Shown: positions 24,608-36,506 of the stretch, one piece after another
Layout of the letters: every line of letters starts with the position of its first letter
Numbering within the stretch: position 1 is the stretch's first letter
From: Stereum hirsutum FP-91666 SS1
Lineage: Eukaryota > Basidiomycota > Agaricomycetes > Russulales > Stereaceae
Direction of reading: 5' to 3'
Assembly: GCF_000264905.1 (NCBI RefSeq)
Contig: NW_006763155.1
Location: 85,871 to 149,870 of the forward strand
Length of the DNA: 64,000 nt
The notes under the pieces: generated by a model
The model's input: the letters and a program-made list of their open reading frames with translations, nothing else
What the model was told of the DNA's origin: nothing
Database searches by the model: none
Made by a program: the position numbers and the translations under genes

Positions 24608-25570
24608 TTACAGAGTTCAAGGCCTCCAAACAAGGCCTCAATGCTGCCAAGTGAAAGTGACGACAGGAAGCTACGCATTATTCATGTGGGGAATCATGAG
24701 CGGAGATGATACTGTTGACCGTATTCATCTTCCAGATATGCTCCTGGTGTGTCCATAAATACGGACAGACTGAACCTCTGATGAAATGATATCAGTCCAC
24801 AGTTTCAGTAACCGATAAGACCACAAGTCGTGTCATGCCAAGCCGGTGGCCCCAGGCAGGCAATACCAGTCTCGAATAATACTAAATACATGCAAACGAG
24901 ACATGTAAACGCCTACCGTACCTCATTGGCGGTGCATATCGATAGATTTACTAGAGGAATACAAAACGTTGCATGTGAGGATATAGCTGGGTGAACCGTA
25001 TACTGGTTGACTCATGCAATGCGATCGACATGGTTGAAACTTTGCAATAATGCAAAATATAGGGTCGACGTAACTTCAGCTGTTTGGTCATCCCTGATCA
25101 ATACGATCTGCATATTTAGTAAGATCATCTTGCTGTAATCGCAAACCCCCATATACGCCGATACAAGACTCCCGGAGGCTCGATAGGTCAGACCACCAGC
25201 GTACAAGAATCATCATGTCTGCATCATAGGATTCGGCGATCGATCTTGCGGTTATATACAGCTCAAACACAGGGACACTGAAGGAATGATAAGGAGAACG
25301 ACCATGAAGGACGAGAACACCGTTATTATCGTGTACGTTGGCCTGTTTCAATCTTCGCGTACGAGCATGACGGATGTGGCGCAGGATATGTCGGGTGAGT
25401 GCAATGTATCATCGGTCCGCAAGGACATGTAGCTATATAGTGTTAGACACAGTTGGCTACGACCAGTGATAAATTGATGGTGGTGCTATCATGATCACGT
25501 CTCACGGGCAGCAATGACTGTGTGGCAACATCCGAGTAAGCCATGAATGGCGAATTTCAACACACAAAAG
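24608..25570. other. Intergenic stretch, one unconfirmed bottom-strand frame
   Basis: A bottom-strand open frame (about 25.09-25.35 kb, starting MKQANVHDNNGVLVLHG) has amino-acid composition compatible with coding, but no recognisable domain and no clear exon partner. Nothing else supported. Confidence 0.35.
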
Positions 25571-25578
25571 ATATAAGA
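25571..25578 (+). promoter_or_regulatory. TATA-like box upstream of the micro-exon gene
   Basis: ATATAAGA lies 71 nt before the ATG at 25642. It supports use of that ATG rather than the in-frame ATG at 25543, which lies upstream of the box. Confidence 0.4.
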
Positions 25579-25641
25579 GGGGGTAAGACCATGAGCCCCC
25601 TTTACGAACTACGACCTGTGTACCCATTTTTCAAGAACACT

Positions 25642-26417
25642 ATGCGCTTCAACACCCTTATCTCTCTATCCACTCTCGTGATGGTTATCTCACCCACCCT
25701 GGCTGCAGGCTCCGGAGGTCGGTCATCCATACAATCACTGCTCAAAGATACAGACGACACTGACCACTCATTTTATCCCAGGACCGCCGGATAGTCGTGC
25801 TCTCAATACCAACTTGGGAGGTACGCATAGGCTTCCCCGCACCATCATATAAGGGCTCACGTTCAATGTAGCAGGCATAGTCAATCGTGCTAACTCTGGA
25901 GGTAATATTAAATAATGTTTTCTCTTGTATGAAACGTCACTTAACCTCACAAAATCTAGGTGCTCCGGGGAAAGGACGTGCTAACTCTGGTGGTAAGTTC
26001 TGGTATATCCTTCCAGAGACTCATTTCAAGAGTTGATAGAACCAACGGTCGCAGGTGCGCCCGGAAACGGTCGGGCCAACTCCGGAGGTTAGTATCAGCA
26101 GACGATTCGAGTCTTTGAAACTACAGTCCTGACGAGCCGTACGTCCAGGTACCCCGGGCAAAGGTCGTGCCAACTCAGGCGGTAAGTATTGTCGTGAATG
26201 TTGCATGAAACAGTAATTAAGTGCTCAAGCATTTTTGTGCGCAGGCGCCCCTGGAAAAGGCCGAGCCAACTCTGGCGGTAAGCGTCCTATGCCTGATCCC
26301 CATAATTGGAGACTTATGAATGTGATAAAACTAGGTGCGCCTGGAAACGGTCGTGACATTACCGACGGTAAGCATATACTAGCAGTGGCCCTACCTATCG
26401 CCAAATATTGGTTTTGA
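25642..26417 (+). CDS. Small secreted repeat protein built from tandem micro-exons
   Basis: Eight exons: 25642-25717, 25782-25820 (39 nt), 25875-25901 (27 nt), 25960-25992, 26055-26087, 26149-26181, 26245-26277 (each 33 nt) and 26335-26417. Every intron is GT...AG, 54-64 nt long, and falls in phase 1, so exons can be added or skipped without changing frame. Product 118 aa: signal peptide MRFNTLISLSTLVMVIS...LAA, then GSGG, a diverged unit (GPPDSRALNTNLG), a shortened unit (GIVNRANSG), four units of the form G-A/T-P-G-K/N-G-R-A-N-S-G, a final unit GAPGNGRDITD and the tail GKHILAVALPIAKYWF. No cysteines in the repeat part, no KR dibasic sites, no known domain. Function unknown: a wall or matrix peptide, or a precursor of repeated peptides, are both conceivable. 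Start chosen because it gives a clean signal peptide. Confidence 0.75.
25782..26367 (+). repeat. Tandem exon-intron cassette array, about 85-96 bp period
   Basis: Seven consecutive cassettes start at 25782, 25875, 25960, 26055, 26149, 26245 and 26335. Each consists of a short conserved coding block and a diverged intron. Conservation sits in the coding blocks (GGTGCGCCCGGAAACGGTCG-type) while the introns share little beyond splice sites, which points to selection on the encoded peptide after duplication. Confidence 0.8.
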
Positions 26418-26699
26418 CATCGGACCTCATTGAAGTTGAGTGATCATCATCAAACCTGGAGTAAACATTACTTCTTCGAATCGGGCAGGATAGGAAGAGG
26501 TGGTAGGTTGTACGATTATACCGCAGACTGTTGGTGATGTAACTGTGACAGGGATTTTCGGGAGTGATTCGACACAATATATTGGAGATGTCGATAAATT
26601 AGTTTCGATAAGGTTGGAGTACATCGGCGATGAGCAAAAAGAAAAAATAGCGGCTACGTATGTCACTTCATCCAGACAGCCGTTCGCAAGCCGTGAGCC

Positions 26700-31027: not shown

Positions 31028-34000
31028 ATGACCGACCAACTCCATACTTCAGGTTTAAGGCTGGGCCAACTATGGCGAGAAGCTTTAGTAAAGTATGCCG
31101 CCGATACTCCCGATGGTACTCTATCGTCCGCGAGCGATATTCCCCTCGACCCAGATCAGGTCCTAGACATCGTCGAAGCCCGCATGAATGGTTTCAAAGC
31201 GTTCAAGGAGAGAAAGAAGAAGATCAGAGAGATACTTGGACCCGTCCTTCACATCGTGAAGTCGTTATCAGATACAATCAGCTCAGCACTGTCGGTGGAC
31301 CCGGGGCTTGTGAGCGACCTCTCCAATTTTCGCATGTTCTGTGATTCACTGATTTTTGTCTTTGTCTCTTAGAGTTACTCTTCAGCTGCGAAGCCGGTAT
31401 TCCAACTATTCAGTGCCTTGGTACAGGTATGGTTGCTTCTAAGATCGAGCGGAACCAGGCGCTTTCTGACATCGTTGATATCCAAGGCTGCGAAAGACTC
31501 TAGCGCAAACTACGATATGATACTCAAACTCCTCGAGGACTGCCGTCGCTACCTCGATCACGTTATTCTTCAAATCAGCAGCACTGTCACCGAACAACAG
31601 AAACGACTTATTGTGGACACATTGGTGGAAGTACTGTCAATTCTTGCGATGGCGAAGAAGGAGATTGTGAGGGGTAGAGCGAGTAACTAATTCCAACCTC
31701 AGTGCAACAATACCTCTCTTGCTGACTGTTGCGACCTAGCCCGCTTTCTCAGAAATCTCGTCGGGAAGGGTAGCGATGTGGCCGATGTGCGGGATAGGTG
31801 GAACCGACTCTTGATGTGGGATGACAAGACGATGGGCGCGACGACTCTGGATAACACCGTCAGGATCAAGTCGCAGGATACTGATACGCTTGGCTGCACC
31901 GAGTATCTATGGTAAATTGTTTTTGCGATATTTCCCGCTTTTATCCACTGCTTAGTCCTTAACTCCCAAGACAAACAGGCACAGGCACTAAAAACGCTCG
32001 TGGACGAGTTGAAATCAGCCCTACAAGGTATGAGATCTTATATTCAAATGATGAGTATATTCCATCACCAATGTGAGACCACTACAGACGTCAAAGCCGA
32101 ATGCTCCTCGGAAATAGCAGAACTTGTCGACAAGTTCACAGTCCTCGCTATAGATGTGAAGCCAGAGGATAGGACAGAAATATCAGAGGTCGCATCGCTG
32201 TTGAGAGGTTTGGCTCTCGAAATGAAAAGTACGCGTTTGGAAATCTGCGTAAATTCACCACCGATACATGTACTGAAGGTTCCTGGGTTTTCGGTAGGGC
32301 TAGCGGAGGATGTTGCGTCAATCAAGGTAACAGTGCAAGGTGTGTTCCTCTTTCTTCAAGACTGTCATAGCTCCTGAAACCTGATGATTGATCTTGAAGC
32401 GTTGCCAGTCCCAATCGTCATGGAGCCCAATGAGATCAAACGATGCCCACTCCCGACACCTACCTTTACCGGTAGAGAAGACGTGGTGCTACAGATGGAC
32501 AACTGTTTCTTTGATGGAACGAATAAGCGACACCTCTTCGTTATTCATGGTCTCGGCGGTGCTGGTAAGAGTCAGATTGTCTACAAATTCGTGGAGAGGT
32601 GCGATGAGCGAAATGGTGAGGACGAAAGGTATGTCTCGTCAATCAGTAACTCTGCTCGTCATATCTGTACCATCCGCTAAAACATTTCCATTAAATAAGG
32701 TTCTCTGAGGTTTTCTTCATCGATGCCGGTTCCCGCGAGACGATCACAGCAGATTTCAAGAATATCGCGTTGAACAATGGCTGTGATCCGACCAACACGG
32801 CTGTACTTGCTTGGTTCTGCCGACATCGGACCAGATGGCTCATTATCTTTGACAACGCCGACGATCCTGCCTTGAATATTCGTGACTACCTTCCGCAATG
32901 CACTCACGGTGACATCATTGTTACCACTCGTAATCCCGAGGTAGTGGCGCACGCTCGAGGTCGCAGACCATTTTACAAAGTCTCGGGAATGCTCCCAGAG
33001 GAGTCTAGCCGGCTTCTTGTCTTGATATCGACTCGCGGAATGGACGACGAGTCGTCGATCCCAGCGGATGAGGCTCAAGCCTCCCAATTGCTTGTTAAGG
33101 TTCGTCACAAACTATACACACAATATATCATGCATTCTGAGAAAGGACGCAGGACCTTGGATTCCTCGCCCTCGCTGTCGTCCAGGCCGGTGCATATATT
33201 TCCACCATACAGTCCACGATTGCCGAATATGCCGATCTCTACCGGCAGCGACGTGGTGAGCTCCTCAAGGAGTACCGCACGCTCGTGCAGAAGACAGACG
33301 ATTATGGAGCTACTGTCTACACAACATGGAGGGTCAGCTTTGAGCGACTCCCCACCGAGGCCCAGCAGCTTCTGCGAGTTTGCGCGTTTGTGCACCACGA
33401 AGGGATCTCGGAGACATTCTTCAGCCATGCATCTGACGAGATACTGGACTTTGAGCCTGTCATACCCATGAGCGACGACGAATCTGCCGCGTTTGACTCA
33501 GCCCGTACATTCCTAACTGAATTTGAACGCAACGGAGTCTGGGATAAAGTTGCCTTCCACGGAGTCATTCTGCAGGTTATGTCTTACTCGCTCCTTGATT
33601 TTGATAAAGCCAATAAAGTATACTCGATACATCCACTAGTCCATGAGTGGTTACGTGTCACTCTTGGTAATCCATATACTTATACTACTCGACTGTGTGT
33701 GCAGTTCGTACTATCATTGGCAGTCTCCAACGATGACTCTACTGTTGGACTCACCCATAATCGATACTATTGCCGCATATTGATAACACTGTCGAAGGGC
33801 GGTACCATAAAGTAGGAAGTGAAGTAGCCTCACGTATCCGTGGAGTGTACGACGACGCGGGACGTTGGATAGAGACAGAGCAGCCAGACAGGACGGTGCT
33901 GGAGATAAGGAAGCGGATGCTGGGGGAGGAACACCCCTCGACGCTGACGAGCATGTTGAACCTTACGGCGACATACCGGAACCTGGGTTGGTACCGGTGG

Positions 34001-34494
34001 ACAGATGCGGAGAGGCTGCGGGCGACGGTGATGGAACCTAGGAAGCGCGTTCTCGGCGAGGAGCACCCCTCGACACTGACGACAATTTCGAACCTTGCGT
34101 TGACATACTCGAGACAAGGCCGGTGTACAGAGGCGGAGAGTCTGCAGCGGACTTCAATCTGGGTCGGTGGATGATGGAGGAGAGTATGCAGGCGAAGGAG
34201 ATGGATATCACTAAGCGCACTCTCGGCGAGGAGCACCCAAACACGCTGACGAGCATGTCGAACCTCGCGTTGACATATTCGAAGCAGTACCGGTGGACAG
34301 AGGCGGAGAGATTACAGGTGTCGGTGTTGGAGACGAGGAAGCGAGTACTCAGTGAGGAGCATCCTAATACGCTGACAAGTATGTCAGACCTCGCGTCGAC
34401 ATACTTGCACCAGGGCCGGTTGACAGAGGCGGAGAGACTGAGGGGTAGACTCCTAGAGGTAGAGACGCGCAAAGCAGAGTGTGACAAAGAGTAA
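31028..34494 (+). CDS. STAND/NLR protein: Goodbye domain, NB-ARC, TPR repeats; probably broken
   Basis: The start MTDQLHTSGLRLGQLWREAL opens a Goodbye domain (31028-31309, then 31373-31426 and 31487-31666) whose FKERKKKIREILGPVLHIVK matches the equivalent part of the gene at 5511-10705. A helical linker and an alpha-helical block follow (about 32.0-32.34 kb). NB-ARC: TFTGREDVVLQMD, Walker A VIHGLGGAGKSQ, WLIIFDNADD (kinase 2), IIVTTRN, and LGFLALAVVQAGAYIS (GLPL-like), with introns at about 32.63-32.70 and 33.10-33.15 kb. LEIRKRMLGEEHPSTLT begins the TPR array (33.85-34.49 kb). Two frame breaks are visible: about 33.77 kb, where the frame must change before LLPHIDNT, and about 34.15-34.19 kb inside the repeats. 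Expected role as for other fungal NLRs, if functional. Confidence 0.75.
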
Positions 34495-36506
34495 ATCCTT
34501 GTTACCCGCTTTTTTGTCTTGGTAGTCAAATTCGAACATTGTACTTTTTGATCTAATACATCACGCGTACAGTAGTCCAGGCCCGAATAATGCATGATAG
34601 ATGGGTATAAAACGAAGACGTAGCAGAGAATTTCTCAAGCCCGGTTTAAGTTCGTGAATGTGAATGCAGACGGGGACTTCTGAGAGGGAGTGCGATGGGG
34701 CTTGGACCAAAAGCATAGTTGTGCCGCGTTGTGCGAAACAGATGAGGTCAAGGACGAGGATCTGGATGGACTGTAGACATCGTGAGGCGGGACGACCGGC
34801 GTAGTTGAACGATATTACGGATGGGCGAAGGGCAAGCCAGAGACACCGTAAAGAAAAAGGAAGCAGCGGCTGATAACGTTTTCGTACATTTCTCAGCAGA
34901 TAGTGCCAGAGAACATGTCATTTACGTTCAGCGATAATCTAAGAGTCTCCGACCAAGGTAATCCAGTCAGGAGATTATAGGGCACATAGAGTAAAGATGA
35001 AGGTAGCTAGATGGAGAACATGACCATTGCAAAGTCAGTTTCGGAGCACGAAGAGTACTCGCCCGAGCTTTTGCTTTGCGTCTCTCGTGATGGGAGGATG
35101 CATTGATGTGTGAATGAGCATACATAATGGCACGTCTCCCGGAGAGCCTACAACGACATGTCGATCGCCGTCTTCGCTTTCACTAAACAATGAAGGTACG
35201 CACAAGGTACGCAGCACATTAGCTGTTCCATTAGCGTTGTGATCTGAGCCATCCGGTCGTGCGTGCATTCGTTCGTTCATCGAAGTTCGTTGGGCGGTTG
35301 GCTGACTGGTTAGTTGATGAGGTCATACTGGCGGATGCGGGAGAGGCTGGGGCTGAGAATGGAGGGAGGGTGAAACCACCGAGGTCGTGAGGAGAGGTGA
35401 TTGTCGGGTGAGAAGGCGGTATGTAGAGAGTTAGTGCTGAATGAAAATGATCGTCAGATATGTACGGCGGAGAAAAAAGGAAGAACGCAGAGTACCGACC
35501 AGATTCGGAGCCGCAAGAGTTATGTTATATCGAAAGCAAGCGAGCGAGCGAGCTGAGGACGCTCGCGGGTTATAATATTTATCATCTCGTCGAGGACAAT
35601 TTAGCCTTCAATAGACCGTATCTGCAACCGTTTAAAACAGGTTTAAAACTGTGATCGGGCGTCCCGTTGGGCCTTAGCGAGCTTTAGCGAGGTCAAAAAT
35701 TCACTCGCAGATACGGTCTAATCGCACACATCACCCGTCGTCCAAGAATGAAGGGTAGTAGAGCCCAAACGCGAGCATATCTCCGACGAACACTTCCGAA
35801 GTCCAAAGTATGCACAATTCCCAAAGGAGCAGCGGACAGGTAATTTCGAACCTAGAGCGAGTATATCGGAAGTGAGACAGAGGTTTCGAGTGAGATACAA
35901 GCGGGGTTTTACCCAGTGAATGTCGTCCTTAATACTCCCAAGGTAGTAAAACGTGGTTCGAAAACGGAGGGGGAGTCGGGTGGTTCAGGTGGGCCCCCAC
36001 GACGAGACTCCACGCACGAAGGAGAGATACGAGGGCGGAGACAAGTGCAACTTACGTATCATCGCGTCAACCTCCACTCTCATACAGAACACATGTATCA
36101 TAGATGGAAAATGAGTGGGAGTAGAGTAGGGCTTTCAGAGTCCAGCATGCGTATGTGGAGCTCGCCCAGTGCGAAAAGAAACGACGACAGGTAGTCCCGA
36201 GCCCAGCTGCAAGCATATCAGGCGCCAAGTCACGAGAAGCTGGGAGCGCGAGCTAGTCGTGTCCTACCCAGAGTTAGGCATCTCCAGCGATTCGGACAGG
36301 CGCGATTCAGATGTTTGGTGAATGTGGCACCAGAATCCCAGGACATAGCGATGGCTTCCCCATCTTCCTTCGAACTGGATGAATCCATCGAAGCCGGCCG
36401 AAATGCTCTAGATGCCATTCAAGCACAAAGTCCGAAGTCACAATACCGGACGCCTAGAACACGAAGAAGTATAGCATCTGCGTGGCTGATTCAAGCAGTT
36501 CGAAGA

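Follow-up and report, generated by a model that had tools for sequence, protein, structure and literature searches.

Organization of the repeat gene

The window, that is, the whole stretch of 64,000 nucleotides analysed here, contains at 25642 an exon for a predicted signal peptide that is followed by seven short in-frame blocks. The spacing of these blocks is 85–96 bp (successive starts are 93, 85, 95, 94, 96 and 90 bp apart), and after removal of the seven intervening introns the frame that begins at the ATG at 25642 stays open over 118 codons up to a TGA ending at 26417. The first seven exons measure, in order, 76, 39, 27, 33, 33, 33 and 33 nt, and the last block begins at 26335. The introns (64, 54, 58, 62, 61, 63 and 57 nt) have GT–AG ends in seven of seven cases and all lie in phase 1, with the codon split after its first base. 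The layout described in an earlier note on this DNA, with seven cassettes at about 85–96 bp, four exons of exactly 33 nt (exons 4–7) and phase-1 GT...AG introns of 54–64 nt, was therefore recovered in full from the coordinates. The features are given below, with the branch match as the distance, in nucleotides, between the A of a YTNAY motif and the end of the intron.

25572..25577, plus strand: TATA-like box by sequence (TATAAG), 70 bp upstream of the ATG, of putative function
25642..25717, plus strand: exon 1, 76 nt, signal peptide predicted by hydropathy, MRFNTLISLSTLVMVISPTLAA, plus GSG
25718..25781, plus strand: intron 1, 64 nt, phase 1, GT–AG, donor GTCGGT, branch match at 18
25782..25820, plus strand: exon 2, 39 nt, diverged unit GPPDSRALNTNLG
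25821..25874, plus strand: intron 2, 54 nt, phase 1, GT–AG, branch match at 15
25875..25901, plus strand: exon 3, 27 nt, shortened unit GIVNRANSG
25902..25959, plus strand: intron 3, 58 nt, phase 1, GT–AG, donor GTAATA, branch match at 15
25960..25992, plus strand: exon 4, 33 nt, full unit GAPGKGRANSG
25993..26054, plus strand: intron 4, 62 nt, phase 1, GT–AG, branch match at 18
26055..26087, plus strand: exon 5, 33 nt, full unit GAPGNGRANSG
26088..26148, plus strand: intron 5, 61 nt, phase 1, GT–AG, branch match at 16
26149..26181, plus strand: exon 6, 33 nt, full unit GTPGKGRANSG
26182..26244, plus strand: intron 6, 63 nt, phase 1, GT–AG, no YTNAY, just TTAAG at 24
26245..26277, plus strand: exon 7, 33 nt, full unit GAPGKGRANSG
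26278..26334, plus strand: intron 7, 57 nt, phase 1, GT–AG, branch match at 18
26335..26367, plus strand: exon 8, 33 nt, last unit with altered end, GAPGNGRDITD
26368..26435, plus strand: probable intron 8 (prediction), 68 nt, GTAAGC...GAAG, branch match at 18
26436..26443, plus strand: probable final coding end (prediction), VE and TGA

At the end of the array a GTAAGC donor stands directly after the last 33-nt block, its first six bases identical to those of the intron 7 donor, and together with the acceptor at 26435 it would delimit a 68-nt intron with YTNAY at 18. This branch spacing, which was not used in finding the intron, matches the pattern seen in six of introns 1–7. A branch match is seen for one of the three candidate acceptors, the chance in shuffled sequence being about 0.09–0.10 for each. 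The resulting nine-exon model has its stop at 26443 and gives a protein of 104 residues ending in GRDITDVE, versus 118 residues when intron 8 is not removed and exon 8 runs to the TGA at 26417 with the read-through tail KHILAVALPIAKYWF. Exon 8 probably brings the number of 33-nt exons to five, with intron 8 (26368–26435) behind it, and the coding sequence likely does not end at 26417; some doubt attaches to intron 8 because the read-through from 26368 to 26417 is itself an open frame. In the protein search the tail was represented by one candidate of one, the window's own ORF (P0004), with two contigs in the database, which do not decide between intron 8 and read-through.

The reading that we favour, with a probability of about 0.72, is that of a gene, likely fungal in view of its intron sizes and of the genes around it, whose nine exons are predicted to be spliced together to encode a single secreted protein of ~104 residues, rich in glycine and without cysteine. 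In this reading five of the exons are symmetric, in phase 1 and 33 nt long, each predicted to add one 11-residue repeat.

Splicing signals and the consequences of skipping or retention

A YTNAY motif with its A placed 15–18 nt from the acceptor is found in six of the seven introns, versus 0.69 expected. This figure was not reached in any of 20,000 shuffles and, since the 15–18 window had been chosen after the distances were seen, the shuffle test was also run with any 4-nt distance window, in which six matches were again never reached (0/3,000). A control of branch spacing on 138 candidate introns of the contig, scored with the stricter YTRAY motif, was uninformative. Two of the donors are off-form, those of intron 1 (GTCGGT) and intron 3 (GTAATA).

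In the nine-exon model any single exon from 2 to 8 can be skipped with the frame and the stop kept, and the frame-safe symmetry of the units proposed in the earlier note holds to this extent. Retention of any single intron from 1 to 6 brings a stop before the end of the array. Only intron 7 could be kept in the transcript without introducing a stop; it is 57 nt long and open in frame and, if retained, would lengthen the repeat internally by 19 residues.

The intact frame and stop after single skips, together with the symmetry of exons 2–8, would suit a gene that varies as micro-exon genes do, with differential exon skipping producing secreted isoforms of different repeat number; the micro-exon genes of schistosomes are said to use alternative splicing in this way (PMC5825161, PMC4350168). 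Nevertheless, this is unlikely, as the safety of skipping follows from duplication of symmetric exons in any case and is no evidence of its use. Moreover, short introns favour intron definition. Exon skipping is also reported as 1% of the coding-region events in Schizophyllum commune, with intron retention at 43–44% (PMC5034255), and the claim that splicing varies the number of repeats is thus left without support. Equally doubtful is the idea that the gene would be an independently evolved fungal counterpart of the schistosome micro-exon genes in which splicing would tune the number of 11-residue binding peptides.

It is more likely that the full set of exons is joined than that the gene serves to change its number of repeats. 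In the nine-exon reading each short intron is probably recognised singly, by intron definition, so that all units would normally be joined in full, and occasional retention of one of introns 1–6 would truncate the protein. Should the splicing prediction hold, five 33-nt exons in a row are joined exactly within one short gene, which would be a compact system for testing how intron definition copes with short exons and why an intron has been kept for every repeat of such a protein over so long a time.

The predicted product and its comparison with known systems

The hydropathy of exon 1 reaches 2.2 in a 9-residue window and is followed by an Ala-Ala cleavage region. With this hydrophobic N-terminal stretch, secretion, as proposed earlier, is predicted here too. 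Cleavage would likely occur after Ala21/Ala22, with export of the repeat chain. Least certain, and put forward tentatively, is the role of the exported chain, which, with a strictly kept motif present in several copies, might bind in a multivalent manner outside the cell, to the wall, a surface or a partner molecule. The 118-residue form contains no N-glycosylation sequons, no cysteine in its mature part and no dibasic pairs, a single Arg after Gly being found in the full units.

The absence of dibasic pairs bears on a second explanation, in which the protein would be a precursor of multiple short secreted peptides, cut once per unit in the manner of KEX2-processed repeat proteins. Such precursors (KEPs) are described in Agaricomycetes and, as here, have a signal peptide and short repeats (PMC9769878). 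The signal peptide (by hydropathy) and the near-identical short repeats of the present gene agree with this, but no dibasic KEX2 sites flank its repeats and the full units offer just the single Arg after Gly, making a peptide precursor unlikely.

No relative with a matching repeat was found in the protein searches. Three of 7,525 candidates scored at E 1 or better (P0001, P0003 and P0002). P0001 and P0003 (E 1.2e-4 and 9.4e-3) are exon-1 read-throughs, covering exon 1 and intron 1 of related DNA, and carry no information on the repeats. With the window ORF at 25543–25794 as reference, 3 of 83 residues differ in P0001 and 10 of 83 in P0003, and the signal peptide is unchanged in both (0/22 in each). 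The in-frame ATG at 25543 extends the signal-peptide ORF upstream (25543–25641); this extension is probably not translated, since 7 of its 33 residues differ in P0003 versus none of the 22 of the signal peptide. P0002 (103 residues, E 1.2e-3) aligned with 51% of the query at 45% identity and carries NSGG-rich repeats behind a lipoprotein-like start; it was judged, together with P0005 (E 0.32 in a search over the 7,995 candidates sharing most words), to be a low-complexity look-alike. The PDB search returned three thymidine phosphorylase sequences (E 0.016–0.017), also taken for low complexity. For the 118-residue form no Pfam family was found at E 10, with filters that drop most matches above about 0.1, and there was no match in plasmids or, at gathering scores, in Rfam.

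The statement of the earlier note that no described family has this layout proved too strong, as parts of it are shared by micro-exon genes, bicycle genes and a Tremella metallothionein. The micro-exon genes of schistosomes are described as coding for secreted proteins largely by short symmetric exons (PMC5825161, PMC4350168), and these the short symmetric exons found here resemble, the product here being predicted to be secreted. They are, however, animal genes of many families with alternative splicing described, with ~80% of the coding sequence given as lying in exons of 6–36 bp, versus one gene here with 61% (nine-exon model) or 45% (eight-exon model). Adding the 39-nt exon raises these shares to 73% and 55%, still below the ~80%. 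The bicycle genes of aphids, which code for putative effectors, likewise have many small exons of a single phase (PMC9168663); these exons are almost all of phase 2, with ~17 per gene in that account, whereas the present gene has eight or nine. All its internal exons are in phase 1. Tremella mesenterica belongs to the Basidiomycota. Its metallothionein TmMT is reported as a fungal repeat protein coded by 10 small exons of 63–105 bp with introns of 48–204 bp (PMC4755600, whose abstract labels the species an ascomycete). TmMT is presented there as a Cys-rich metal binder, whereas the protein predicted here has a signal peptide and a mature part devoid of cysteine, and hence of cysteine-rich repeats. 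Fibrillar collagen genes also string together small, symmetric exons that code for a Gly-rich repeat, in line with the loose analogy with collagen drawn earlier; the analogy does not extend to the unbroken Gly-X-Y triplets, which are absent from the unit GAPGKGRANSG. In SP7-like effectors a signature sequence typical of the family closes each repeat. These effectors of arbuscular mycorrhizal fungi, likened to the present gene by description only, have a signal peptide, imperfect hydrophilic repeats and one conserved intron before the first repeat, introns per repeat going unmentioned in that description (PMC11333574). A 2024 paper states that functional microexons had previously been undescribed in filamentous fungi and describes a single regulated microexon in Trichoderma (PMC11121469). 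Among the matches listed from the open-licence literature, taken at the level of their extracts, no fungal gene for a secreted protein could be recognised in which every repeat has a micro-exon of its own. Such genes are probably missed easily by gene finders, and secreted repeat proteins with this architecture may be under-counted.

Conservation of the units and origin of the array

Across the four full units 11 of the 33 sites vary, and 10 of these 11 are third codon positions (hypergeometric P 1.3e-6). Summed over the six pairs, pS is 0.69 and pN 0.043 (pN/pS 0.06). The bias extends to the incomplete units: with exon 8 added, third positions account for seven of the eight sites that vary within the first seven codons, and with exon 3 added they account for all four in the last five codons. 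Column-wise comparison of the introns, made from each of their ends, gives a mean identity of 0.26 once the six outermost columns on either side are set apart, and among the first and last 25 columns examined only +1, +2, −2 and −1 are invariant. Both the conservation of the coding blocks amid diverged introns (26% identity) and the selection on the repeated peptide that had been claimed for this locus are thereby supported. Gapped intron alignments gave a mean of 0.496, versus 0.487 for shuffles. Among the 21 pairs, introns 2 and 6 beat 100 of 100 shuffles, and for two further pairs 3 and 4 of the 100 shuffles scored at least as high, which might reflect a faint trace of common intron origin.

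From their sequences the units appear to be old, preserved as peptide and without sign of recent exchange. With pS at 0.69, near saturation, and the introns hardly alignable, no mark of recent unequal crossover is seen, and the variation by this route suggested in the earlier note is not supported. Recent satellite growth or slippage was rejected, as most third positions vary between the units and the array is absent from the list that Tandem Repeats Finder gives with its default score.

In its own genome (46 Mb in 38 contigs, with all counts being lower bounds and simple repeats skipped in the DNA search) no second copy of the gene was found by protein, unit pattern or DNA. The protein matched its own locus and gave one weak C3 match (E 2.96, 30% identity); the unit pattern, allowing 3 mismatches at most, was found four times on the forward strand, always in the repeat gene, and never on the reverse (control 0); the 851-bp gene DNA matched only itself at E 10. 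As this last search included the introns, there is no sign of a spreading intron family, with the proviso that short diverged copies could escape, and an introner-type spread of introns is thus argued against.

These results also weigh on a third explanation, as unlikely as the peptide precursor, in which the repeats came first and an uninterrupted 33-nt repeat gene later gained an intron at the identical spot of each unit. The little or no detectable likeness among the introns would agree with it, but an identical phase and position in every unit is accounted for more simply by duplication, and neither another DNA copy nor a spreading intron family is seen in the genome within the limit just given. 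In the favoured nine-exon reading the array probably expanded in the distant past as an exon was duplicated with its flanking intron, as suggested by the phase and the position of the split Gly codon, identical in every unit; since the intron likeness is gone, duplication is not directly demonstrable. Purifying selection then preserved the peptide, with the synonymous sites and the introns drifting to the near saturation visible in the sequence. Overall, the locus is real and unusual, ordinary in principle, and represents a repeat gene of tandem exons that is new in its setting.

One frame of the minus strand (PPELARPFPGA) varies in 2 of 11 columns, exactly as the plus frame does (2/11), and codon positions alone therefore do not choose the strand. 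On the plus strand AG precedes and GT follows each of the six blocks examined (exons 3–8), and no AG/GT flanks these blocks on the minus strand; the plus strand also has the TATA-like box at 25572 and the predicted signal peptide. That the locus is a defunct or silent relic, or instead codes on the opposite strand, is very improbable: the edge units (exons 2, 3 and 8) are diverged and the minus frame is equally conserved, but GT and AG are kept in 7/7 introns amid saturated sequence with the frame intact, branch-site spacing is kept in six introns and the minus strand is devoid of AG/GT at the edges of exons 3–8.

A scan for five-residue words repeated at least four times at a spacing of 60–150 bases and in more than one frame, covering 259,870 bases in 21 sequences (the window and 20 stretches of its own contig), flagged the repeat locus on both strands and otherwise only CSSPS, one word of a 126-bp TPR repeat, through a mixed chain. 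Positions 1–865 of the window hold a 126-bp tandem array (6.9 copies, 89% match) of 42-residue TPR-like units (QGRWTEAEGLEV...), and a similar array is found in L017, the TPR label being given by appearance. At 32384–34595 lie pieces of a likely NB-type receptor gene, with a GLGGAGKS motif in the ORF at 32384, a DUF7779 match at 33285–33815 (E 6.4e-9) and TPR-like units after that match. In three stretches of the same contig (L022:6580, L024:8350 and L027:1840) the word IVSGS is repeated three times at 129-bp spacing, in what look like WD40-like repeat genes.
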